DNA from: a bacterium D16-56
GTDB lineage: Bacteria; Bacillota; Clostridia; Lachnospirales; Lachnospiraceae
Reading direction: 5' to 3'
Assembly: GCA_003611875.1 (NCBI GenBank)
Contig: RAYY01000025.1
Coordinates: 1-64,000, forward strand
DNA length: 64,000 nt
Shown here: in pieces, positions 157 through 13,200 of the stretch
How positions within the stretch are numbered: the first letter of the stretch is position 1
Layout of the letters: every line of letters begins with the position of its first letter
Notes under the pieces: model-generated
What the model was told of the DNA's origin: nothing
Seen by the model: only the letters and a program-made list of their open reading frames with translations
The model's database searches: none
Position numbers and translations under genes: made by a program

Positions 157-1098
157 TCAGCCTTTCCAAAAATCATCCTGAACGGCTGCCCCAGATCCAT
201 GCCCCCTATCCTGCATACAGCGTACCAGCCACTTAGGCACCTCCATCCGCACCGTTTTCATCGGATTGACAATCTGACAAATCATCAGATCTCCGGCCAT
301 GTCCAGCAGCATTCCCGCATCCACTTCACCCAGGCCCATTTTCTTACAAAGAAACTGAAACATCTGCACTGCCGCCTTACCTGACGCCTCATCCAAGGCA
401 GAGCCATAGGCAATGGTAATCCACTGCTCCTTATTTTCCAGCATAGGATAGGTAATACCTGTCTGCTTCAGCACATCCACCTTCAGCTCCACATGCCCCT
501 CAATCTCTACTCCGCAATTAGCCACCTCTCCCTCCCCCATAACAGCATGAAGATCCCCCACAGAAAGCAGGGCCCCCTCTGTACTGACCGGAAGGTACAA
601 GACAGCTCCTTCCTCAACCCTTGTACAATCCATGTTTCCCCCATGATCCATAGGGGTCAAAGTTCCCACCGGTTCCCCGGCCGGAGCCACACCAATCACC
701 CCGATCATGGGCTTTGCCGGCACCAATATCCCCTCATAATCAATCATGCCATCCTTTACAGAAAGCCGTTTTATCACCGGCTCCCTTCCGGCAAATGCCT
801 CCTTTAAAGCGCCGCTGGATCCGCCGATATCCAATATTCCAACCGGCCCCACCTCCAGCTTCTTAATCTCGATCCTTAAGGTATCTCCCGGCATGGCGCC
901 ATTGATATACACCGGCCCTGTGGCCGGATTGCCAAAACAACGGTCAAAATCACGAAAGGTACTGCCCTCAGCCAGCATTACCCCCCGATAACAGTCATAG
1001 GTCTCCAATTCCACACACTGCCCTGGCTCTGCAAATGCCGCCGGTTTATCACTTTTACTGAATGCATAAATCACATGATCTCTTGTAACTTTTACCAT
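157..1098 (-). CDS. Acetamidase/formamidase family protein
   Basis: This 313-residue protein matches the FmdA/AmdA amidohydrolase family, which releases ammonia from small amides such as formamide or acetamide in the cytoplasm. Visible family signatures are the GGNMDC segment near the middle, the GDLHAVMGEGE stretch that contributes metal-site residues, and the C-terminal QIVNPMKTVRMEVPKW segment. Length is normal for the family. The ATG at 1098 has a strong site (GGAGGGGAAG) six or so bases upstream, so the start is secure. It is monocistronic and preceded by the unusual repeat array at about 1166-1548. The actual amide substrate cannot be told from the sequence. Confidence 0.88.
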   Translation of the reverse strand: MVKVTRDHVIYAFSKSDKPAAFAEPGQCVELETYDCYRGVMLAEGSTFRDFDRCFGNPATGPVYINGAMPGDTLRIEIKKLEVGPVGILDIGGSSGALKEAFAGREPVIKRLSVKDGMIDYEGILVPAKPMIGVIGVAPAGEPVGTLTPMDHGGNMDCTRVEEGAVLYLPVSTEGALLSVGDLHAVMGEGEVANCGVEIEGHVELKVDVLKQTGITYPMLENKEQWITIAYGSALDEASGKAAVQMFQFLCKKMGLGEVDAGMLLDMAGDLMICQIVNPMKTVRMEVPKWLVRCMQDRGHGSGAAVQDDFWKG

Positions 1099-1165
1099 TT
1101 TATCTTCCCCTCCGTTCGCTGCTTAATGCACTCTCAGGCTCTTCCCATACTTTATTTTTTGAGAT

Positions 1166-1548
1166 GAGCCTTTGGGATAACCTTTTGAGAGCTACCTTTG
1201 AGGATAACCTTTTGAGTTCTCCTTTGGGGAGCTCTTTTTGAGAGCACCTTTGAGGAGCTCCTTTTGAGTTCTTTTTTGGGGTTCTCCTTTTGAGAGCTCC
1301 TTTTGAGTTCTTCTTTGGGGAGCTCCTTTTGAGTTCTCCTTTGGGGGTCTCCTTTTGAGTTCTCCTTTGGGGAGCTCCTTTCGAGAGTTTCTTTTGAGAA
1401 CTCCTTTCGAGAGTTTCTTTTGAGAGCTCCTTTTGAGTTCTTCTTTGGGGGTCTCCTTTTGAGAGCTCCTTTGAGGAGCTCCTTTCAATTTCTCCTTTGA
1501 GGATCTCCTTTTGAGAGCTCCTTTCGAGATCACCTTTTGGGATAATTT
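1166..1548 (-). repeat. Tandem array of about 29 degenerate 13-bp Shine-Dalgarno-like units
   Basis: Read on the minus strand, the block is a head-to-tail run of 12-, 13- and 14-bp units resembling CAAAAGGAGCTCT, nearly every one containing AAGGAG or a close variant. About 29 units can be counted. The units contain no stop codon in most frames, so long reading frames (127 and 159 residues, Lys/Ser-rich with a 13-residue period) open by chance; neither has a convincing start site of its own. The array ends about 70 bases before the acetamidase start, in the orientation that would put it in that gene's leader. The remaining gap (1549-1715) is AT-rich and shows no further gene; no clear promoter is visible. 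Confidence 0.85.
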
Positions 1549-1715
1549 TTTGTCCGACATGCACAAATTCATCAAGCATACACGGAATGTATCTTCATTA
1601 GACTTGGATGCATCCAGCCAAAAATCAGCCGCAAAGGCAAGTGTTGGGAGACTCTGAGAGTACAGCCTTGATATTTTAATTTCTAAACATTTTAATGTTT
1701 TAATACTTTAAAACC

Positions 1716-2663
1716 TTAATTTTTTAATTCTTTTTTCTCCCTGTTCACCACATAAATTCCCAAACAAACCAAAATCAAAGCCACCAATGTATTCCAGGTC
1801 AGAGCCTGCGCTGTCTCCCCCAAGAAAATTGCTGATAAAATCACGCCAAACATAGGATTCATAAACCCAAAAACCGTCACACGGCTTACCGGATTATATT
1901 TCAGCAATACCCCCCACAAAGTATAGGCAACTGCCGACAAAATCCCCATATACAAAAGCAGCACAAACGCAGAAGGTCCCACTGCCCCGGACAAAGTGCC
2001 TCCACAGGCAGCGCCAATAACAAGCAGCGCCATACCACCTGCCATAAACTGATATCCGGACAATGTAACCACGTCAAACATCCCTGCATACTTCTTGATT
2101 AAGGATCCGGAAACTGCATAAAAAATCTGTGCCAGCAGCACAAATCCTTCCCCCAAAAAAGAAACAGAAAACATGTTATCCGAACCATCGCCTGCCAGAT
2201 TCACAATCGCAATTCCCAAAAATCCCAAAACACATCCCGTAATCTTATGCATGTCCAGCTTTTCATAACGAAAAACCAAGCTGGCACACAACATAGAAAA
2301 AAACACATTGGTTCCCGTAATAATCGCACTATGGACTCCACTGGCATGAGATAATCCCACATAATAAAACAAATACTGCAAAACCGTCTGCGATAAAGCC
2401 AGACTGCCAATAGCAGAACCAGAGCCTTTCGGCGGACAGATCCAGTGTCCGCTCATTATGCTGTGATACAAAATCACCAGAAAACCAGCCAGCACAAAAC
2501 GGATTCCGGCAAACATCAAAATCGAAGCCGCATCCGCCGAATCAATCTGAAACAGCCGGTATCCGATCTTTATGGACGGCGCTGCACTCCCCCACAAAAA
2601 ACAGCAGAGGCCTGCTGCCAAAAGCACTGTCTTCATATCTGTTAAGTCAATCTTTTTCCTCAT
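1716..2663 (-). CDS. EamA/DMT-family transporter
   Basis: The 315-residue product is a hydrophobic protein with about ten predicted membrane helices arranged as two repeated EamA halves, the hallmark of the drug/metabolite transporter superfamily that exports amino acids, metabolites or drugs. The N-terminus (short charged stretch then LLAAGLCCFLWGSAAPSIK) carries the typical FxWG-S/N motif of the family, and the C-terminus has the conserved late-helix GETAQALTWNT segment followed by a basic tail. It stands alone, transcribed away from the defence island. The substrate is unknown. A second, only distantly similar EamA protein lies on the other side of the island (19698-20591). Confidence 0.85.
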   Translation of the reverse strand: MRKKIDLTDMKTVLLAAGLCCFLWGSAAPSIKIGYRLFQIDSADAASILMFAGIRFVLAGFLVILYHSIMSGHWICPPKGSGSAIGSLALSQTVLQYLFYYVGLSHASGVHSAIITGTNVFFSMLCASLVFRYEKLDMHKITGCVLGFLGIAIVNLAGDGSDNMFSVSFLGEGFVLLAQIFYAVSGSLIKKYAGMFDVVTLSGYQFMAGGMALLVIGAACGGTLSGAVGPSAFVLLLYMGILSAVAYTLWGVLLKYNPVSRVTVFGFMNPMFGVILSAIFLGETAQALTWNTLVALILVCLGIYVVNREKKELKN

Positions 2664-2733
2664 CTTTTGCTTGGTTCCTCTCCTATAATCTCCTTTACCT
2701 TACACAGTGCCTGCAGGTCTGCAGGCAGCCATG

Positions 2734-2880
2734 CTATATCTTCCATATTTGCTGCGGAGTTTCTCCTGGCTCAATAATTTTCCGCCTAGGAACTCCCACC
2801 TGCCTTTGTACACCCCCATATCCTCGCTGGTTTGCAAGGATGGAATGCTTGTATTTTATGATGGCGGCGGATACTTGGAT
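2734..2880 (-). pseudogene. Frameshifted, truncated Nudix (MutT-like) hydrolase remnant
   Basis: One minus-strand frame reads VSAAIIK...ILANQRGYG, the next frame reads YKGRWEFLGGK, and the first frame resumes with IIEPGETPQQ before stopping. Joined, these reproduce the start of a MutT/8-oxo-dGTP diphosphatase: the AAII strand, QRGYG, KGxWEFPGGK and the first part of the Nudix box (E-PGET). The catalytic REUxEE half of the box and everything after it are missing. This implies one frameshift out, one back in, and a 3' truncation. The rest of the gap up to 3165 is AT-rich and I see nothing in it beyond the end of the defence operon. Confidence 0.6.
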
Positions 2881-3165
2881 ATAAAATAAGGCAATCGCGT
2901 TATCTTCTAAAACATGCCTATTATAAATCAATAGTTTCTAAAATTCAAAATAAGTTTTGATTTAAGATGAATATTATTATGTTTTCTCTATAAACTCTTT
3001 TCTATAATCAAAATACATAGACATATTATCTGATACAATTCTGATTTTGTATCGTTATATAATATATCATTTTGTTTGTATTCTCTCCAAATTATTAGAT
3101 CGAAATGTCGATATATACTCCAATATCTCTCACTTCACAATTTAAAACTTCCAGTCCAATTCAAT

Positions 3166-4440
3166 CTAATAAATAACTCCTCCTATTATATCATCAAGTT
3201 TTTCCATAACATCACTTTCATGATAATCCCATATACTTATTAATTCCTTTTCAATTTTACTCATTTCAAAATCTTTAAGCAAACTTTCATCATATACATA
3301 AACCAATAATAATTCAATCAGTTTTGAATGTCCAATTACCATTCCTTTTTTGTCATTATCCCATATGATTTTTCTCCATAATCTGTGTTGAATCCATCTA
3401 ATTGGCTCTGGTATTTCATTGATAATTTCAATAAAAGTAGTCTCTTTGTTTTCTTTTACTCGAACTGCCATTTTCGTGAATGGAATCAAAGAAGCTGGTC
3501 TCAAAAAAATATGTCCACCATTTTTGTCTCTATATTTTCCTACTGTACCATCATCGCTTTTCATCGCTTCCTCACAAGATTTTATAATAGCTTCCCAAAA
3601 GCTTCTACAATCTTCTGTGAATTTTGTTATTGTATTTTCTTCTGGTCGGTGCCTGATATACTCATTGATCTTATTACGCCCCTTTATTACTTTTTCATCT
3701 AATCCTCTTACCTCTGTTTCTTTTATGGAAAGCCATAACAGTTCTTTATTACATTCGTAATAAGTAATAATGGAAGTCAATGCAGTATTATTTCCATCTG
3801 GAATTGCTTTCGTTTTAGCATCTAAAATCCGTTCACCTACAAATAAATCTGTTTTATCTATCAAATTTCTTGATGCAATTGCAACAATATCGTCTTCATC
3901 CAATGCAATAATATCTCTCAATGAAACTGGTTTCGCATAACGATTAAGTGTGCTGAACATCCTACGGGTTTTCTGCATTCCCTCATCATCCTTGCTATGC
4001 CCTACAAAAATAACTGCTACCCGTTCATTTTCCAAATTCTTATCAATTTCTAAAGCTTTCTTTATTCCTGCAACCCGATGCTGTCCATCAACAGGAAATA
4101 TTTTCTCTTTATCACTCAGAGTTAACATACCTAAATTATAATTGTCTTCTCCCTCATAATCCTCTAACCGTATTTCATTCCATACCGGTTTTCCATCGTA
4201 TACTGCCAACACCAATGCATTAAAAAATCTTTCTTCCTGTGTTTTCAGATAATTAGCAATGCTTTTATAATTATTAGTAATACTTCTTTGTATCATTCCA
4301 CTCAAAAGTTCCGATTTATGTAATTCGTCATCGATTGGTTTAACAAATTCCAAAATTTCGCGAAAAGTTAAAGTGCTTACATAATAAATCCATATCCCCA
4401 TTTGTGACCGGATGGCCGGTATTTTTATTATTCTTTTCAT
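3166..4440 (-). CDS. DndB-like DGQHR-domain protein
   Basis: The 424-residue protein carries the signature VDGQHRVAGI at about residues 117-126, which defines the DGQHR family that includes DndB, the DNA-binding regulator of phosphorothioation loci. A second conserved patch, MFSTLNRYAKPVS at about 162-174, resembles the FxxINxxxKPL motif of the same family (ParB/sulfiredoxin-like fold). The start has a good site (AGAAGGGA) and follows the nuclease gene by 12 bases, so it is the last gene of the defence operon. In Dnd systems DndB represses the modification genes; the same or a modification-directing role is inferred here. It is somewhat longer than typical DndB, so a direct equivalence is not certain. 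Confidence 0.8.
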   Translation of the reverse strand: MKRIIKIPAIRSQMGIWIYYVSTLTFREILEFVKPIDDELHKSELLSGMIQRSITNNYKSIANYLKTQEERFFNALVLAVYDGKPVWNEIRLEDYEGEDNYNLGMLTLSDKEKIFPVDGQHRVAGIKKALEIDKNLENERVAVIFVGHSKDDEGMQKTRRMFSTLNRYAKPVSLRDIIALDEDDIVAIASRNLIDKTDLFVGERILDAKTKAIPDGNNTALTSIITYYECNKELLWLSIKETEVRGLDEKVIKGRNKINEYIRHRPEENTITKFTEDCRSFWEAIIKSCEEAMKSDDGTVGKYRDKNGGHIFLRPASLIPFTKMAVRVKENKETTFIEIINEIPEPIRWIQHRLWRKIIWDNDKKGMVIGHSKLIELLLVYVYDESLLKDFEMSKIEKELISIWDYHESDVMEKLDDIIGGVIY

Positions 4441-4452
4441 ATAAATTCCCTT

Positions 4453-4962
4453 CTAAAAAGCATCTTGATCTGGCATAATCTGAACATATCGATCTGGTAT
4501 CTGCGAATTGCAAGGTGGAATAATAACCCGGATCAATTCATTCTCCACCTTTTCAACAATTTTATCATCTTTAATTGGAAGATAATAAAAATACAAGTCC
4601 TTTCCCCATACTTCCCTCATGTACATGATTTTAGGGCGCGTATCCTTTAAATAATCTCTACATCGCTTTCTTAAACTGAATTCTTTTTTACGCATTACCC
4701 GGCCAATATACATAATATATAGATGGAGATCTGGTATTATATTCGGTTTTAGCAAAAAAATATACACACCGCCTACATCATCTGGTACTTTTGATATTTC
4801 CTCATTAATCCCATTTCCTTCTTCATTTAGAAATTTAATACAAAACCACTCTTTTGAAACTATATTTTTCACCTCGTCATTAATCGTTGCCCATTTATCT
4901 ATATTTAGTTGAAAATCAAGTGTTAGTTCTTTCTCCCTTTTGCACATATCAACTATATTCAT
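4453..4962 (-). CDS. GIY-YIG domain nuclease
   Basis: This 169-residue protein has the hallmarks of a GIY-YIG endonuclease: GVY at residues 65-67, YIG at 85-87, arginines at 98 and 100 in the following helix, glutamates at 140 and 142 in an ENELI segment, and PPCN at 149-152. That is essentially the full catalytic signature in the right order and spacing. The N-terminal 60 residues match nothing I recognise and may give specificity. It lies between the cysteine desulfurase (60 bases upstream) and the DGQHR gene (12 bases downstream). GIY-YIG enzymes cut DNA in restriction, repair and homing; as a lone domain inside a defence operon it is a candidate cleavage effector, which is inference. The start has only a weak site. 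Confidence 0.75.
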   Translation of the reverse strand: MNIVDMCKREKELTLDFQLNIDKWATINDEVKNIVSKEWFCIKFLNEEGNGINEEISKVPDDVGGVYIFLLKPNIIPDLHLYIMYIGRVMRKKEFSLRKRCRDYLKDTRPKIMYMREVWGKDLYFYYLPIKDDKIVEKVENELIRVIIPPCNSQIPDRYVQIMPDQDAF

Positions 4963-5022
4963 CTTTTTGCATACCCCTCAAAACAATCGCATATAATACT
5001 TATCGTATTCTTTATCATATCC

Positions 5023-6141
5023 CTATCGCGAGTCCAATATTTCTATCAATGTATTGACAATCGTTATCACTTCCTGCTCTGTATTATCTTTACTTAGGCT
5101 GATCCTGATCGTGCCTTTTTCATATTCTTCAGGCACTCCAATCGCTTTGATTACATGAGATACTTGGGTGTTTTTTGAATTACATGCCGATCCTGTTGAA
5201 ATGCATATTCCTTTTAAATCCAAACGATGTAATAACATCTCTCCTTCTGCATCTTTGATGGAAATACTGATATTCCCTGGAATATGGTTCCTGCCTCCAT
5301 TTGGAATATAATCAATCTCTGCTTTTTGTAATTGACAGAAAAACATTTTTTCTAACTTTTCCAGGATCTCCCTGTTCTTTTTCATTCCATCACAATTATT
5401 TTTCAACGCTACCGCCATAGCCACGATAGAGGCAATATTTTCTGTTCCTGACCGCATGCCAGACTCCTGATTCCCACCATCCAGAAATGCGTTTATTTTT
5501 ACTCCCTTTTTTACATACAAAAAGCCAATTCCTTTCGGCCCGTTAAATTTATGAGCGGAAGCTGAGAGCATATCTATATCCAATTCATGAACATTGATTG
5601 AAAGATGTCCCACTGCCTGTACTGCATCTGTATGGAACAAAGCTCCATGTTCATGTGTAATCCTGCATAAAGCCGCAATTGGTTCAATCGTTCCTATCTC
5701 GTTATTCACCATCATCACAGACACCAATTTTGTCTGAGAGGTAATAACTTCTTCCAATGTTTGGGGCAATACCACCCCTTTTTTATCAACTGGCATATAA
5801 ATAACCGGGACTTCTAATCGTTCCATGCTATTACAGGCATGCAAAACAGCATGGTGCTCAACAGAAGACGTAATTATAACTTGTCTGCTATCAAAGGATG
5901 GCACCCCTTTTATTACCCAATTATTGCTTTCCGTCCCACCAGAAGTAAAATAAATTTCTTCCGGAAATGCGCCAATACAGGCAGCAATGATCTTTCTGGA
6001 TTGTCTCAATGCCTTCTTTGCCGGCCTGGAAAAAGAATATGCCTGGGATGCATTCCCATAATTATTCAAAAGATAAGGTTTCATTGCTTCAAATGCCTCA
6101 AAATCAAGCATTGTTGTGGCAGCATTGTCTGCATAAATCAA
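5023..6141 (-). CDS. IscS/DndA-like cysteine desulfurase
   Basis: A PLP enzyme that takes sulfur from L-cysteine as a persulfide. Visible motifs are the N-terminal IYADNAATT, SGGTESNN, EHHAVLH, HTDAVQAVGH, the PLP-lysine in SAHKFNGPKG (about residue 198) and the catalytic loop cysteine in STGSACNSK (about residue 320), so it appears fully active. I place the start at a TTG (6141), giving 372 residues beginning MIYADNAATT like other family members and spaced 8-9 bases from GGAGG; an upstream GTG at 6156 is the alternative. It sits inside the BREX operon rather than with isc or suf genes, as DndA and SspA do beside phosphorothioation genes, so its sulfur is probably destined for BrxP. Confidence 0.88.
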   Translation of the reverse strand: MIYADNAATTMLDFEAFEAMKPYLLNNYGNASQAYSFSRPAKKALRQSRKIIAACIGAFPEEIYFTSGGTESNNWVIKGVPSFDSRQVIITSSVEHHAVLHACNSMERLEVPVIYMPVDKKGVVLPQTLEEVITSQTKLVSVMMVNNEIGTIEPIAALCRITHEHGALFHTDAVQAVGHLSINVHELDIDMLSASAHKFNGPKGIGFLYVKKGVKINAFLDGGNQESGMRSGTENIASIVAMAVALKNNCDGMKKNREILEKLEKMFFCQLQKAEIDYIPNGGRNHIPGNISISIKDAEGEMLLHRLDLKGICISTGSACNSKNTQVSHVIKAIGVPEEYEKGTIRISLSKDNTEQEVITIVNTLIEILDSR

Positions 6142-6159
6142 TGGTAATTCCTCCACTCA

Positions 6160-6372
6160 TTACTCAAAAAGTTTGCATCCTTCCTCTTTAAATTCTTCTA
6201 TTTTATCAAGAATATCCTCTGGCGAAACTTCTAAGAAAGCAGCAAGACAATTCAAACAATAAAAATTTTCCACATCTTCCCCCAGAAGTTTAATATTGAT
6301 ACCTATTTCATTTTTTAAAAGATATTTCTTTCCACATGCTATGCATGATTCAGCTTTTTGCCTTTTTTTCAC
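6160..6372 (-). CDS. Small zinc-ribbon protein
   Basis: A 70-residue protein with two CxxC pairs (CIAC near residue 10 and CLNC near residue 39) that should bind one zinc ion, followed by an acidic helical tail ending in EEGCKLFE. I recall similar stand-alone small proteins in clostridia but know no function. It begins with GTG overlapping the TGA of brxL (GTGA) and is followed 18 bases later by the desulfurase, so translation is coupled to the BREX genes. An adaptor or sulfur-relay role is only a guess from position. Confidence 0.7.
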   Translation of the reverse strand: MKKRQKAESCIACGKKYLLKNEIGINIKLLGEDVENFYCLNCLAAFLEVSPEDILDKIEEFKEEGCKLFE

Positions 6373-7841
6373 TGATTTTCAAGCTCCTTTACTGTAAAAT
6401 CCGGAACTGGCACCCCTGCATATTTATCATCTGCATACCCCATTTGAAGCCGAATAATAGCACGCATATCCTTGGCTGGACGCAGGCAATAATTCTTAAA
6501 ATCATTTACTGAAATGTCCTCAGACTTTCTGACATTAGGAAACAACAGCTTCAAATATGCCGTGCTGATTCTTTTGATCGCCTCTGTATCTCTGGTATCT
6601 GCGCCTTTTGGCAAAACAATCAGCTCATCCACAATTGCACGATATGTAGGGTCTTCCCTCAACTCATGCATGACAGTTGCAAAATATTCCGAATTGAGGG
6701 CCCAGCCACATACCTTCAAATCATCAGTCATTCTGGGCAACTCCCACCCTTTAATAAAGCCATGAATACGATCAAGGAATTGCGGTTGATGAAATGGCCT
6801 GGGAAGCTCTACAAACATATTCTGATATTCACTCATCATTTCTGAAGAAATGTTTCCCAAAAAAACAATCCCCGCATCAACGTTCACTTCATGATTGTCT
6901 GGCGCACGATATTTTCCATTTTCCATGATTGCCTGCAATGCGGATTGTATCTCGGTATCCTTCATATATTCCGCCTCCCGAATTTCATCAAGTGCAACAT
7001 AATCACGGAAAGCCACAACACCATCCTTCTTTTTTCCGATATCATATATCAGTTTTGCTCTGGTGACCTTGCCTGAGACCAACCATCCATGTCTGCTTAC
7101 CTGACCAAAAAGATAAGATTTCCCCGTTCCCGCAGGTGCTAGTTCCAAAAGATTAAGCCTTTTTTCCACAAATGGAAGAAGCCTCTGAATGACTGCCAGT
7201 TTTTTCCCTATTCCCTCATAGCCTGCTGCGTTATAATCCACTGCTCCGAGAAGAATGTCTATCCACTCAGTAAGTGAAAATTCCTCTCTTGCGTACTTAA
7301 ACTCATCAATATCCACGATATATGGGCAAAAATCACGAAAACTCACCAATTTAACTTTGCCAGGTTCCTTTTTTGATTCGGGATACTGATATCCCAATTC
7401 TACAATTCCCCAGTTTTCTTCTGATTTTAAAAGAGCAGTGCTGCATGTTTCCCAAACATCTGGCGGAATAATGGTTTCCTTATAACTAAGCCCAAAATCA
7501 GGAAGTTCAAATGAAGTTACCTGTGTTTTTATATCAATATTTACAGCTATTTTTGCAAGAAATTTCACCCTTTCCTGATAATTAACAATGCGATTGATAA
7601 TTCCTTTCCAATTTTCCTTTTTAGGAATAAAATCTTTTATAAAATCAGTAGCGCCCTCTACATCGATCTCACCGTTTTCATCCTGGAACCGTTTTAATAC
7701 CCAGTCCCGCATAAAAGATGGCAATTTAAAAGAAGAAATGAAATTACTCTTTTTTAAATCTTTATAAACAACCATCTCATCATAAGCGTCCTTTAACCGC
7801 TCAACAAAGTCTTCCATTTGCGCTGTCACTACTTCTTCCAT
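6369..7841 (-). CDS. brxL: BrxL-type AAA+ ATPase, lacking the Lon protease domain
   Basis: The 490-residue protein matches the N-terminal and AAA+ regions of BrxL, the Lon-like BREX component that forms DNA-encircling rings. Visible elements are the P-loop APAGTGKS (235-242), the Walker B VALDEI (282-287), the sensor segment FLGNIS (327-332) and a downstream DRIHGF arginine-finger region. Type 1 BrxL proteins are nearly 700 residues and end in a Lon S16-like domain; here the protein stops after the AAA+ lid and no serine-lysine protease motif follows. The start has a clean GGGAGG site. It lies 19 bases after pglZ. Whether the short form is normal for type 4 systems or a loss in this lineage I cannot tell. 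Confidence 0.82.
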   Translation of the reverse strand: MEEVVTAQMEDFVERLKDAYDEMVVYKDLKKSNFISSFKLPSFMRDWVLKRFQDENGEIDVEGATDFIKDFIPKKENWKGIINRIVNYQERVKFLAKIAVNIDIKTQVTSFELPDFGLSYKETIIPPDVWETCSTALLKSEENWGIVELGYQYPESKKEPGKVKLVSFRDFCPYIVDIDEFKYAREEFSLTEWIDILLGAVDYNAAGYEGIGKKLAVIQRLLPFVEKRLNLLELAPAGTGKSYLFGQVSRHGWLVSGKVTRAKLIYDIGKKKDGVVAFRDYVALDEIREAEYMKDTEIQSALQAIMENGKYRAPDNHEVNVDAGIVFLGNISSEMMSEYQNMFVELPRPFHQPQFLDRIHGFIKGWELPRMTDDLKVCGWALNSEYFATVMHELREDPTYRAIVDELIVLPKGADTRDTEAIKRISTAYLKLLFPNVRKSEDISVNDFKNYCLRPAKDMRAIIRLQMGYADDKYAGVPVPDFTVKELENQ

Positions 7842-7860
7842 TCATATCCCTCCCATTGCA

Positions 7861-10206
7861 TTAGATCAAATCCACTTCCTGTCCAGTTACTTTTTGTACT
7901 CGGAATGATAGATTTGAGCCTATCCTCTTGTCCCCTTCATATATATCTGCATTCCAGGTTTTGCTACGCTTTAACTCAGGCATAACGAATTTTGCATGAT
8001 ACAAGTCCCCACTATGCTCACCTTCATAAAATTTTCCATTTACCAACAGCCTTGGTTTCTGAATGGGGATATTAGAAAACAAAGTGATTGCGGCAGTTTC
8101 TTTTGCATGCAATTCAACAAGAGGATTTGTAAAACAAAGCATGATATCGTCTGGCCGTTTTGAGATCACGATAACTGGCACCACAACTTCTTCTAAGGTT
8201 GCACCCCCATGTACTTCAACATTTGCTTTGCGTCCACCTCGAAACCTGTCATAGTTTGCCAAAATAGAATATCCATTTTCAAATGCTGCAAATGAAATAT
8301 CCGGATCCTTATTTGCCAGGCAACAACGTCCGCTGTGTCCCGCCTTTTCATCTAGAGAAAGCTTTGTATCTGCCTCCTGTTCTTTAATTACAGCAAGCCT
8401 GCTTGCCCCATGGTCAGCGATAAGAATTGCCCTTTGTTCCGGTTCTCTTGTAAGCTGTGCCTGGATTCTTCTCAACTGATCATCAATAATATCCAGTTCT
8501 TTAAATATATGAATCGGGAGTTTACATTTCTGATAGTCAATCACCTGGCTATGATGTTTCAGTTCATCTAACTCTCCTATTTTCAGACACTCCTGTGAAA
8601 AATATGGAACAAATTCTTTATTATTTTCTGTAATAGAAGGCAACATACAACTACCAATTTGCGTCTCTGATACCAATCCATATTCTTGACATTTTGCTTC
8701 TATATAAGCCAGATACTCCACACCAAGAGCATCGAAAAAATACACCTGTATGTTTTCTTTTGGCAATCGGTTTACAATTGTGCTGCGTGGCTGTAATTTA
8801 TTATAAAGCCTTTCCAAAGCAAACGATTCTACTTGTGACAGAAATTCTGGCCAGATACGATTTGTCAGCTTCTGTAATTTATACTGAGAAAAATATTCGG
8901 TTAATATGCCCCAAAGTTCCTTATCCTTTTCCCTGAGTTTCATATTGCTTTCGGTAAATTCATATTTATGCAGGTACAATTTTAATTCCGCAAATGCCAA
9001 AGAAAAAATATCTTCTAACTCCTGATTTGTATATTCATAGATACTGAGACATCTCATCAATTCATATTGTTCTTTTTCACTTGCATCTGTCAGATAATAA
9101 ACTGCATTTTTTTCACGAATTCCTACTGCCTTGCAATATTGATCTACCAATATTATATTTTCCGGAAATGCATCAATTAAGCGTTTCCTTTCATAATACT
9201 TCTGTTTAAATTCCTCCTCCCGCCAATCCATTTCGAGAATATCCATATAAATATGTCGTTCAAAATCCAAAACCGATTGACTGTTTTCCAGTACTTTCGT
9301 CAAGTATAAATTCCCTTTGTTTCCATATACCTTCAAAGCCAGCCATAAATACCACATCTTATTTTCATCTGGTTCTTCTGCTGCTTCACTTAAATGGGAT
9401 ACCAAATTTACTGTGGAGCCAAAAACTTTATGGACAACTGCAGAAAAAGTATGTTGCTTTTTCATGCGGTTTGCCAATATCCTCCACTGTTCTTCACTTC
9501 CAAAATTCTTTTCTGTCGCAGCTGCTAAATCTCTGTATTTTTTGATTAAGGCATCATAAATATTATCTATAGCAGCAATCGAATATACAGACTTACAAAA
9601 TAATGAGATAGGATGGTCTGTTATCACTGTTACTTCTGGGTTATCTCTCAGTGTTTTGTTATTCATACCTTCAAAATACTGAAAAAGATGCTTCATGTTT
9701 TTTTGTAATCTGCTATCATCAATAATTACACAATCCTCAAGACATTTTGCCATCTTGATTTTGGGAAGCGGAGAAGACTCCCCCTCAACGATCACAACCT
9801 TTCGTCCTACCCGCTGATCTCGGTTTATATAGCTTTTGAGATATTGCCGCGAATGATCTAACAGAATAATTGCATGACCGCTTATTGGCAATTCTAAAAG
9901 ATCTCTGAGCAGTTCATTTACGTAATCTGCACTCCTTAACATTGCCACCTGTGAAACTCCAACTAACACATGGTTTTCCTTTTTTGTTTCTTTGCGACAA
10001 ATCTCATATAAATCGGGCAACTCATCTTTTCGGCAATATTCAGAAATGTAAACACATTTTTTACTACTATCTGCCTGAATCCGGCCTAAAATATCTTGAT
10101 AAATATCATAGTTTTCCGTATTCACAAGCAAAGGATATCCTGTAGATTCTCCTCTGCAATAAGCATTGATTTCCCCAAAACAAGATAGGACATCTTTACA
10201 ATCCAT
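7861..10206 (-). CDS. pglZ: PglZ-domain BREX protein
   Basis: A 781-residue protein with the PglZ alkaline-phosphatase-superfamily domain in its middle to C-terminal part. Seen directly are the metal-site strand VYFFDALG (near residue 490) and LIADHGASRL (near 600), followed by a GHSGRCC segment and VEVHGGATLEEVVVPV, which are typical of PglZ C-termini. The N-terminal third shows no recognisable domain. PglZ is the one component present in every BREX type and is required for defence and modification. Start: ATG at 10206 with AAGGAG upstream, overlapping the end of brxC by 11 bases; a GTG seven codons earlier is less likely. Confidence 0.9.
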   Translation of the reverse strand: MDCKDVLSCFGEINAYCRGESTGYPLLVNTENYDIYQDILGRIQADSSKKCVYISEYCRKDELPDLYEICRKETKKENHVLVGVSQVAMLRSADYVNELLRDLLELPISGHAIILLDHSRQYLKSYINRDQRVGRKVVIVEGESSPLPKIKMAKCLEDCVIIDDSRLQKNMKHLFQYFEGMNNKTLRDNPEVTVITDHPISLFCKSVYSIAAIDNIYDALIKKYRDLAAATEKNFGSEEQWRILANRMKKQHTFSAVVHKVFGSTVNLVSHLSEAAEEPDENKMWYLWLALKVYGNKGNLYLTKVLENSQSVLDFERHIYMDILEMDWREEEFKQKYYERKRLIDAFPENIILVDQYCKAVGIREKNAVYYLTDASEKEQYELMRCLSIYEYTNQELEDIFSLAFAELKLYLHKYEFTESNMKLREKDKELWGILTEYFSQYKLQKLTNRIWPEFLSQVESFALERLYNKLQPRSTIVNRLPKENIQVYFFDALGVEYLAYIEAKCQEYGLVSETQIGSCMLPSITENNKEFVPYFSQECLKIGELDELKHHSQVIDYQKCKLPIHIFKELDIIDDQLRRIQAQLTREPEQRAILIADHGASRLAVIKEQEADTKLSLDEKAGHSGRCCLANKDPDISFAAFENGYSILANYDRFRGGRKANVEVHGGATLEEVVVPVIVISKRPDDIMLCFTNPLVELHAKETAAITLFSNIPIQKPRLLVNGKFYEGEHSGDLYHAKFVMPELKRSKTWNADIYEGDKRIGSNLSFRVQKVTGQEVDLI

Positions 10207-13200
10207 ACTCGCTATCTCCTTGTCCACCTTTCAAAATCTGCATTCCAAAATCAACATCATCCATAATTCTTGCGCATAAATACTCACGTAATACTTTTGT
10301 ATCCATGGTATTGATTATTTCCATTGCCCGGTCACAGCCATTTAGCTTATATTGCTTATCAGCCAGGCCTTTTAAACAATTTTGTACAGCACGGTTGTCC
10401 ATCCAATCATAGGGTTGATCATAAATCTTATTTGTAAGTTCTTCCCGGATATTGGTCAAATCCTGTAGCAAAACAGAGTAACTTCCCACAATGCATCGCA
10501 AAAAACAGTCATCACGTTCTTCTTCCTTCTCCAGCCTTTCATAAAAATCTGCACGTTTTAGATAATCCATCGCCTTTTTTGCATCAGACTCAGAAGGATT
10601 AGAACTTGCAATAATACGAAACATCTCTCTTGCCACACTTCTTTCCGAATCATCAAACATGCACAGAATCGGAGTCCTATACTTTTCTGACCAACGATAG
10701 GGATCTTTTGTCTTTGTTTTTTCATGCCATAAATCTTTCAGCTTTTTCTTCCACTGGCTTTGTACAAACCGGTTCACCTCATTCTGGACAAATCTGTAAT
10801 AGTCCGATTTTGATTTTGTAAATTGTCCGGAAGGGAATCCCTGATATAACCTGTCAATTTCTTCTTCATCCAAATCATTTAAAAAGGCATTTGCATCTTG
10901 CTTAAAATAAAAAACCTGGTCTTTATAAAAAGTATCAAAGCTTTCCCTCTGATTTAATAACAGCTCATGAAACTTCTTTTTATTCTGTTCCAGCAATTCA
11001 TCACTTTGCTTCATAATGCATAACTGCTTTAAAAACAATCCCAGATCTCCTGTCAATTTCGCCGCTACTTCACAAGGCAGCTTTATATGATTTGTCTTTG
11101 CGTTCCATGCAGACACAGTTTCCCGTATAGATGTACATTTTTGCAAGCTTTTATTACTTTCCAATATGATCTGGTATTCCAGAATAACATCTGAAATTTT
11201 ATTGTCTGCCGTAGAAGGATTCCACACCCAGTTAGCATCATTGGCATTGAACTTTTTCTTGATTTCTTCCAGATAATTACCTCCATCACCAATTTCAGCT
11301 GCAAGCCCAGGTAAAATTCCTTCCTGGTATGCTTCAATATAGGCAAGCATACCGCTTCGGCAATAGGCATTTGTCATTAACTTTTCCATATCGGAAACCG
11401 CTTTTGGATTCTCCATAAAAATTCGGCCGATTTCTTCTGCAAGACTGCTTTCTGTAGCTTTATTTCCATTTGCTGTATTCGCAATCCCTAAATAATCATC
11501 AATAATTTTTTCTATAATGCCAATCGGACTTTCCAGTTTTTCATTTTTCAGAATATTTTTTACTGACCAGATAGGAAACACCAACTCCCTCATCTTGATA
11601 CGCATCTGGTCTCTAGTATTCTCAAGTGACATGCATTGATCTGAGGGGATTTTAAAAATCGCGGCAGTTTGATTCAGAAAATTCCGCATTTCCTGACTCA
11701 TAGTTACAATATATTCTTCCCGATATTTCTTGTCTGGACTATTACGAAAATTAATAGCATTTGCTATCATAATTGCCATCTTACTAAAAGACATTACTTC
11801 ACTGGCCGAACCATTGCTCCAGAAAAAATCTGGTTTTGCATATTCCTTTAATACAAATCCCATTACCAAAGATGTCAAAGCAGAAGGCATAAAACCAAAT
11901 GGCTCTTTTTCTAATTCTTCTAATATGGAAACTACACTCACCCGACCTGCCTCGCTATGAAATCCCTGTTCTACAATTTCCATGACTTTCTTCTTTATCT
12001 GAACAATTGTTAAACTCTGTTTTTCCTGTTTTTCCCAATAGTGTTCTGTTTTCCATGCTCCTTCCAATGCTTTCTCAAAGCTTTTATTTTTATTTTTCTT
12101 ATTGTCAAAAGCCCGGGAAAGTTCTTCTTTTATCCCGCACTCTGCACCTTCACGTAAATTGTATATCGTGTACATGGTATCATTTAATTCATATTGTTCT
12201 AATCCATAATAATACTTCTTATGATTAATACTCTGTAATATGTCCTGTAGTTCAGCCAAATTAGCTATGCGCCGACCACTTTTATTTTCCTTATCATAAA
12301 GCTTAAATGCACCGTTTGAAATACGATCCTGCCATTCCTTTAATATTGTTTCCGCCTGTTCATTATAATATGTTGCCTGGTTTCTATCCTTATTCCGGTT
12401 ATATTTACTAAAAGCAATATTGTCAATATATTGATCATACAAATCTTTCCCCATTGGTGTCAGCGTTTCAATAAAATATAAATCATTATCAGGCATATTG
12501 ATATTTTTCATTATCGCCTGATGTATCTGTTCAGCCTCTCTTTCATTCACCGAAAATGTCACAACAACATAAAAACGTTCTGGATGCTGGCCTTTTTTCT
12601 GTTCTCCAATTATGGAAAGCAAATGATCATAAGAAGTACTCTTTATTACAAAACGATTTCGGATTACTGGCGGCAGTAATACTGCATCTATCAGTTTTCC
12701 ATTATCAATCAAATTTTGTGTTTTTGTCTCCTTTATCGCCTCCTCCCGGTATTCCTGAATATCTTCACTGCTCCCCAGATTTGCTGCACAATATTCATAT
12801 TTCCCACCACCAACCAGCTTTTTTAATAAGATCTTTTTTTCCATCAAACCATTGGCAATCGCAACAGCTTTTCCTTTATTCCAGTCTGTTCCGGCAAATG
12901 CCAGATCAATATTCTGATCATTTGGAATCAGTAATTCATTTCCTGTAGCGCGAAGAGCAATCGCCTGAAGAAGCAGAACAGTTTTCATAACCCGCTGCTC
13001 ATCAGGGAGAAGCTTGTCTGCCTGCAGCATGCGATAGCTGTCCAAGACTCCCCGCACATCATCATTTAATCCTTTTTGTTCTTTGCCATAGAAAAAATCC
13101 CACAGAAGATCTATGGTCAATAAATTGATTTCATCCATTGGCCCATATTCATTTATAAACCATTTAAATCCTTTAGCTTCTGTCATATCATTACTGATTA

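Follow-up and report, generated by a model that had tools for sequence, protein, structure and literature searches.

A species-specific 13-bp tandem array with Shine–Dalgarno-like units in the presumed 5′ leader of a Lachnospiraceae acetamidase gene

Direct repeats of the heptamer TAACTGA lie upstream of start codons in Beggiatoaceae, Cyanobacteria and Bacteroidetes, reaching up to 43 copies, with 169 sets in the main genome described; a role in translation or rearrangement has been proposed for them, with no proven function (MacGregor 2015, PMC4679880). The heptamer has little Shine–Dalgarno (SD) character. A second precedent is uspA2 of Moraxella catarrhalis, whose 5′ untranslated region contains AGAT repeats; their number affects expression (Attia and Hansen 2006, as cited in PMC4679880). 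The array described here, found in a 64,000-nucleotide stretch of a genome of the Lachnospiraceae bacterium D16-56 (the window; contig RAYY01000025.1), shares features with both. Like the TAACTGA sets, it is tandem, intergenic and start-facing, and the long Bacteroidetes arrays are likewise stated to be absent from close relatives (PMC4679880); the heptamer, by contrast, has a 7-nt unit and many sets, whereas here a 13-nt SD-like unit is confined to a single locus and the array stops 63 nt short of a gene with an SD of its own. With uspA2 it has in common tandem repeats in a leader (a presumed leader in our case), but the uspA2 unit is 4 nt long and present in 6–23 copies, with strain variation and an expression effect on record (PMC4679880). 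Judged by these likenesses, the array is of the same general kind as leader tandem repeats, with a longer, SD-like unit. A search of the open-access literature, with most subscription papers outside its reach, returned no description of tandem SD arrays.

The array is 391 bp long and reads, on the minus strand, from 1552 to 1162, its edge lying 63 nt from the ATG of an acetamidase gene at 1098 (Table 1). A preliminary description of the locus had put it at about 29 tandem units over roughly 380 bp; the array stands, with the figures corrected to 30 units and 391 bp. The same description gave a repeat of 12–14 bp, which we revise: the period is 13 and the register is constant over 27 units, the impression of a varying length arising from CAAAA and CAAA variants inside that constant register. 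Tandem Repeats Finder (TRF) reports the array at 1157–1543 with a period of 26, accompanied by overlapping rows at periods 13 (partial), 39, 52 and 65; no other TRF array in the rest of the window exceeds about five copies. Exact AAGGAG occurs in 17 of the 30 units on the minus strand and in none on the plus strand, and all 17 copies point toward the acetamidase start, so that the direction reported earlier is right and the claim that nearly all units carry the motif is too generous. First-order Markov sequences of the array's composition (n = 2000) contain 1.2 copies of AAGGAG on average and 5 at most, against the 17 observed, and across the whole window no 392-nt stretch begun at an AAGGAG outside the array holds more than 3. 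The array is real, and far beyond chance.

Table 1. Positions of the array, its parts, neighbouring features and the two SD-like arrays compared with it; coordinates refer to the window unless a locus or accession is named.
Feature	Coordinates	Strand	Basis or detail
Tandem array, 30 units (29 of 13 nt, one of 14), consensus CAAAAGGAGATCT	1162..1552	-	TRF and fixed-register alignment
27 units in exact 13-nt register, without indel	1202..1552	-	
Degenerate units at the edge (three; the first is the 14-nt unit)	1162..1201	-	
Acetamidase/formamidase gene, 313 aa	157..1098	-	Pfam FmdA_AmdA, E 8e-30
SD-like sequence of the acetamidase gene, CGGAGGGG	1107..1114	-	Stretch around it predicted to pair at -12.1 kcal/mol
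EamA-family transporter gene, next upstream, same strand as acetamidase	1716..2663	-	
Open frame, 159 aa, through the whole array, ending one base short of the acetamidase ATG	1100..1579	-	Putative
Second open frame, 127 aa, TTG start, through most of the array, stop at 1192	1192..1575	-	Putative
Short SD-like array of congener G004: some 4.6 units, each 13-14 nt, AAAAAGGAGTGCTT and variants	L003 1471-1548		Contig C11
L016 array, about 8.5 units of CGAAAGGATAGCT	237-346	-	Gammaproteobacterial MAG JABIZD010000173.1

The internal order of the units carries a record of how the array may have grown. Adjacent units alternate between two forms in 20 of 25 steps, compared with a shuffle mean of 13.0 (p 0.0045), which amounts to a 26-bp alternation, and unit identity is 0.69 at a lag of 13, 0.78 at 26 and 0.71 at 39. 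The alternation, together with an identity at lag 26 that exceeds those at lags 13 and 39, is what would be expected if whole-unit blocks had been duplicated. Both edges end in degenerate units that resemble each other (CAAAAAATTATCC at 1552; CAAAAGGTTATCC at 1214 and 1187), CAAAAGGTTATCC or a relative of it recurring in edge units −1, 25 and 27, and the interior is dominated by AAGGAG. The locus displays the head-to-tail units of roughly 10–100 bp that define minisatellites, as well as the higher-order periodicity and degenerate edges that go with growth by unit-block duplication; alternation with degenerate edges is the usual minisatellite look.

We favour, with moderate confidence, the reading that this is a minisatellite of 13-bp units, specific to the species, which occupies what is presumably the acetamidase 5′ leader and is probably passive. 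It would have expanded by slipped-strand or unequal-recombination duplication, in blocks of whole units, and would be tolerated because it is intergenic and spares the SD and start codon of the gene. A transcript through it would have a long leader, A-rich and SD-like, that is partly folded; any effect on acetamidase translation, as standby or decoy, would be passive and mild at most. A dedicated function is not needed to explain the array. Its origin is ordinary; its content is unusual, being SD-like and directional, with no start at SD spacing. Three observations speak against a passive minisatellite: the invariance of the AAA columns of the unit and a folding signal in the order of the units (both from tests chosen post hoc), and the short SD-like leader array that a congener, G004, has of its own.

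The distribution of the array is narrow. It is present at one place in its own genome, and our genus sample comprised 24 genomes, 23 besides that of the window species, with one genome per species. Acetamidase homologues 82–85% identical to the window gene are found in 5 of the 23 other congeners, and neither TRF nor the upstream sequence (some 350 nt of it in G011) revealed an array before the gene at any of these five loci. A three-unit pattern with two mismatches allowed matched none of 396 other sampled genomes of the family, one of them a congener; we reject a dispersed element on this result and on the single place in the own genome. The two-unit pattern gave single matches in 5 of the 23 other genus genomes, and TRF, run on all five, recognized an array only in G004.

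The genomic setting of the acetamidase gene also differs between relatives. In G017 a kptA homologue is its upstream neighbour, as it is, on inspection by eye, in G021, G012 and G011, but G003 has another gene there; in the window species the kptA homologue is on another contig, with the EamA gene upstream of the acetamidase gene instead. Five congeners have close homologues of both the EamA and the acetamidase gene, and in all of them the two are on different contigs; the junction that contains the array is thus absent from what was seen of these relatives. In G017 the kptA homologue (Pfam PTS_2-RNA) beside the acetamidase gene has an in-frame 9/36-bp repeat near its start (L020 163–265), encoding an Asn-His-Gly/Arg stretch, and TRF lists a 2.2-copy 13-bp AT-rich repeat downstream.

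Whether ribosomes might bind such a leader depends on the strength of its units. Calculated against a generic 16S tail, which may not be the host's own anti-SD, the AAGGAG units are predicted to pair at −8.4 to −12.4 kcal/mol, a range that includes the −12.1 kcal/mol of the stretch around the acetamidase SD; the host's 16S 3′ end was searched for in the draft genome and not found, and seems to be missing from the assembly. Windows of 10 nt reaching −6 kcal/mol make up 33% of the array and 18% of the background. The array contains three NTG triplets, against 1.0 expected from its composition, so NTG is not depleted; none of the three falls 5–9 nt behind an AAGGAG, and one GTG stands 10 nt behind. 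The preliminary description had suggested that the array binds 30S subunits non-productively. This is possible because the AAGGAG units are of SD strength and no NTG follows them at 5–9 nt, and on this model 30S binding without initiation is chemically plausible; the predominantly paired state predicted for GGAG, the undepleted NTG and the modest share of array windows (33%) that reach −6 kcal/mol run the other way.

These numbers bear on an alternative to the passive minisatellite, namely a functional array whose start-less SD sites capture 30S subunits as a standby reservoir or decoy, with copy number, changed through slippage, tuning the output of the gene. The predicted energies and the absence of a start 5–9 nt behind any AAGGAG fit such an array, although the energies were computed with a generic anti-SD, the host's 16S end not having been found in the draft, NTG is not depleted, and one AAGGAG is followed by a GTG at 10 nt. 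In synthetic leaders a single distant standby module can serve, and can support high translation, but two to four such modules gave no cooperative gain (PMC3936740). The gene-facing orientation of all 17 AAGGAG copies, the invariant AAA columns, SD cores whose mean openness exceeds that of shuffled unit orders, and the separate SD-like leader arrays of G004 and L016 would all suit the capture of 30S subunits; set against them are GGAG cores that are mostly paired (unpaired 0.19), the most open one being matched by 43 of 120 shuffles, an acetamidase SD predicted to be as strong as the array's own units, and the lack of an array at the five congener acetamidase loci. A promoter scan of 900–3000 yielded one promoter-like site, against 3.2 in shuffles, and placed no promoter, so that it lends this alternative no support. 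On balance we consider a functional SD array unlikely.

Folding predictions give a divided picture of the presumed leader. On the sense strand, columns 2–5 of the unit (AAAA) are predicted to be open (unpaired 0.85–0.99), and the two GG columns have unpaired values of 0.39 and 0.17. The acetamidase SD is predicted unpaired at 0.30 in a leader beginning at 1600, 0.46 in one beginning at 1552 and 0.63 with the array removed (from 1165); since other truncations scatter between 0.38 and 0.80, an effect of the array on this SD is not firmly predicted. The leader folds better than its dinucleotide shuffles (z −3.77) because the repeated unit is self-complementary. By contrast, all 150 unit-order shuffles fold more stably than the real order of the units (on the opposite strand, 132 of 150 do), as do 149 of 150 in each of two dimer shuffles and 139 of 150 shuffles of five-unit blocks, and 57 of 60 column-wise shuffles fold more stably than the real array. 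A selected stable RNA structure in the form of a hairpin chain is not supported, the real order folding worse than shuffled orders.

The SD cores are predicted to be more open in the real order: AAGGAG exceeds all 120 shuffles (0.436 versus 0.400) and GGAG is unpaired at 0.189 versus 0.121, but 43 of the 120 shuffles contain a GGAG that reaches the most open one of the real order. Simulations of neutral array growth reached a z of at least 3.2 in 1 of 100 runs, the real array scoring 3.05 in the same analysis. Three adjacent columns (AAA) are invariant in 29 of 29 units; an invariant run of three appeared in 1.8% of 513 accepted neutral simulations and in 5.7% of the 87 matched for variant number, and three invariant columns anywhere appeared in 20%. 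The folding-order and AAA-core tests were both chosen after the data had been seen. The AAA core, and a unit order predicted to leave the SD cores less paired than shuffled orders do, are weak hints of some constraint on the RNA.

Comparable arrays exist elsewhere. That of G004 directly precedes GGCGGTGAAAAAATG of a capsule-type gene, which we take from its sequence to encode an epimerase. In G003 the frame upstream of the homologous junction carries GGCGGTGAAAAAGTG at its end, and there is no array; nor did TRF find one before the gene at five loci homologous to that of G004 (L080–L083 and L085); L081 has an unrelated two-copy repeat elsewhere. Homologues of the capsule-type gene (G000:C110, G003:C61, G019:C4, C11, C23) align as two halves separated by additional bases, apparently within one open frame, perhaps with a variable linker. 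A three-unit pattern, applied to the genome collection, met five distant loci (L012–L016). Of their arrays, that of L016 is in a leader, that of L014 is flanked by convergent frames, that of L015 follows a frame, and those of L012 and L013 are at contig ends. The L016 array ends at GGGAGGATAAGCTATG, which belongs to a 64-aa frame and includes its SD and ATG; the frame has no Pfam match, and the array unit resembles its SD region. L013, in the Chitinophagales MAG CALBCY010000368.1, has at 6440–6720 about 20 units of CACCAAAGGAAAGC with a Lys-rich open frame, in the style of the window array.

The G004 and L016 arrays share with ours A-rich, SD-like units of 13–14 nt that face a start codon, but they have 4.6 and 8.5 units, stand before other genes and are built of other unit sequences, as would befit separate origins. 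The two suggest that SD-like leader arrays arise independently, and more than once. Scans with reversed cores temper any wider claim. Three AAGGAG copies occur in 14 of 391 genomes of the class (7 places in the own genome, one or two in each of the 13 others), against about 50 genomes for the reversed control; TRF on 4 of those 13 found arrays of 2.9–3.8 units in three and none in one. Among viral contigs the three-unit TCCTTT pattern was found in none, and four AAAGGA at a period of 13 in 1, compared with 5 for the reversed control. Within the genus, AAAARRAG triplets occur in 5 of 24 genomes (the place in G004 was examined) and the reversed control in 7 of 24; the reversed two-unit control hits 20 places in 15 of the 24 genomes, versus 5 forward places outside the window species. 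TRF on all 20 of these control places put one in a 2.2-copy repeat and none in an array of at least four units, and an array was present at 1 of the 5 forward places, too small a difference to count as evidence. The class, viral and genus scans thus found no general excess of SD-like arrays over reversed cores. We hold it quite improbable that the locus is a natural, evolvable ribosome-landing array. In that case amplification of A-rich, SD-like units of 13–14 nt ahead of the true start would be a recurrent event in leaders of this genus, gain and loss of units would set the local 30S supply and so the translation of the gene behind, and the A-rich core and unit order would be kept so that the SD cores stay partly open.

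The GGA in each AAGGAG raises a different prospect, in which CsrA or another GGA-binding protein occupies 17 A(A/G)GGA sites in the leader and represses the acetamidase gene, or is itself titrated in the manner of CsrB. The 17 ARGGA compare with 2.1 expected from the window and are spaced by 13, 26 or 39 nt, whereas GGA alone, at 17 versus 12.2, is hardly above expectation. CsrB is of similar size, about 350 nt, and repeats SD-mimicking GGA motifs (PMC9037510); the window array differs from sponges of the CsrB/RsmZ type in its presumed leader position, in having been found in one species and in its GG bases, which are predicted to be mostly paired (unpaired 0.39 and 0.17 on average) where such an RNA would expose GGA in loops or single strands. 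A search of 1000–1800 against Rfam gave three matches, the best at 17.5 bits with 74 needed, and so no hit to a known structured RNA family. A csrA gene is present in the own genome (G000:C128, 77 bits), but 11 of the 24 genus genomes have one and the array was found in a single genome. A CsrA-binding leader seems to us very unlikely.

An explanation at the level of DNA would have the array bind a regulator, or be phosphorothioated at GAAC/GTTC by neighbouring dnd/BREX-type genes. On the minus strand at 3166–10227, near the EamA gene and the array, matches to DndB-like, DndA/SspA-like, BrxL and PglZ proteins follow in a row, and from sequence they look like a BREX system with phosphorothioation-type genes, presumably type 4-like. 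GAAC/GTTC is a phosphorothioation motif, and the array contains GAAC 7 times, where 1.45 are expected, and GAGCTC 9 times, where 0.07 are expected; yet repeats multiply any word inside them, GAAC/GTTC may not be the modification motif of this host, and 13 bp is not a helical multiple. We regard a DNA-level role as extremely unlikely. On its plus strand the array also holds, at 1214–1481, 7 of the 10 terminator-like matches of 900–3000 (2.3 expected, both strands of the region), and no plus-strand gene that would use them was seen.

The array can also be read as codons. Lys-rich frames in several registers had been proposed for it, and the frames are indeed rich in Lys and Arg, one of them fully open and another open as far as 1192, while the third minus-strand frame is closed by two stops inside the array. 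We shuffled the order of the 26 strict-register units (1539–1202) 2000 times and scored the amino-acid repeat similarity of each frame. Shuffles did as well or better in 16% of cases for the 1579–1100 frame and in 45% and 98.5% for the others, so this test detected no frame-specific constraint; identity at lag 39 (0.71) is not above that at lag 26 (0.78). Openness itself comes cheaply, with 0.65–0.70 stops per frame on average in unit-order shuffles, because the unit contains no stops. A protein-coding repeat is therefore unsupported, the conservation of the frames equalling that of shuffled units (p 0.16, 0.45 and 0.985). One might still imagine the 159-aa frame as a translated leader coupled to the acetamidase gene, its stop falling one base before the ATG at 1098, with gain or loss of units switching the coupling on and off by shifting the frame, since 13 is not a multiple of 3. 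Neither the constraint test (p 0.16) nor the cheapness of an open frame favours this, and by eye no SD-like sequence precedes the ATG at 1579; we judge it highly unlikely.

Should translation respond to the array, synthetic multi-SD and standby leaders would have a counterpart in nature, one with copy number as its mutational dial. If it is passive, it is a minisatellite that mimics a regulatory device, its unit happening to contain an SD core. Either way, the locus offers a ready construct for asking whether many start-less SD sites help or hinder initiation.
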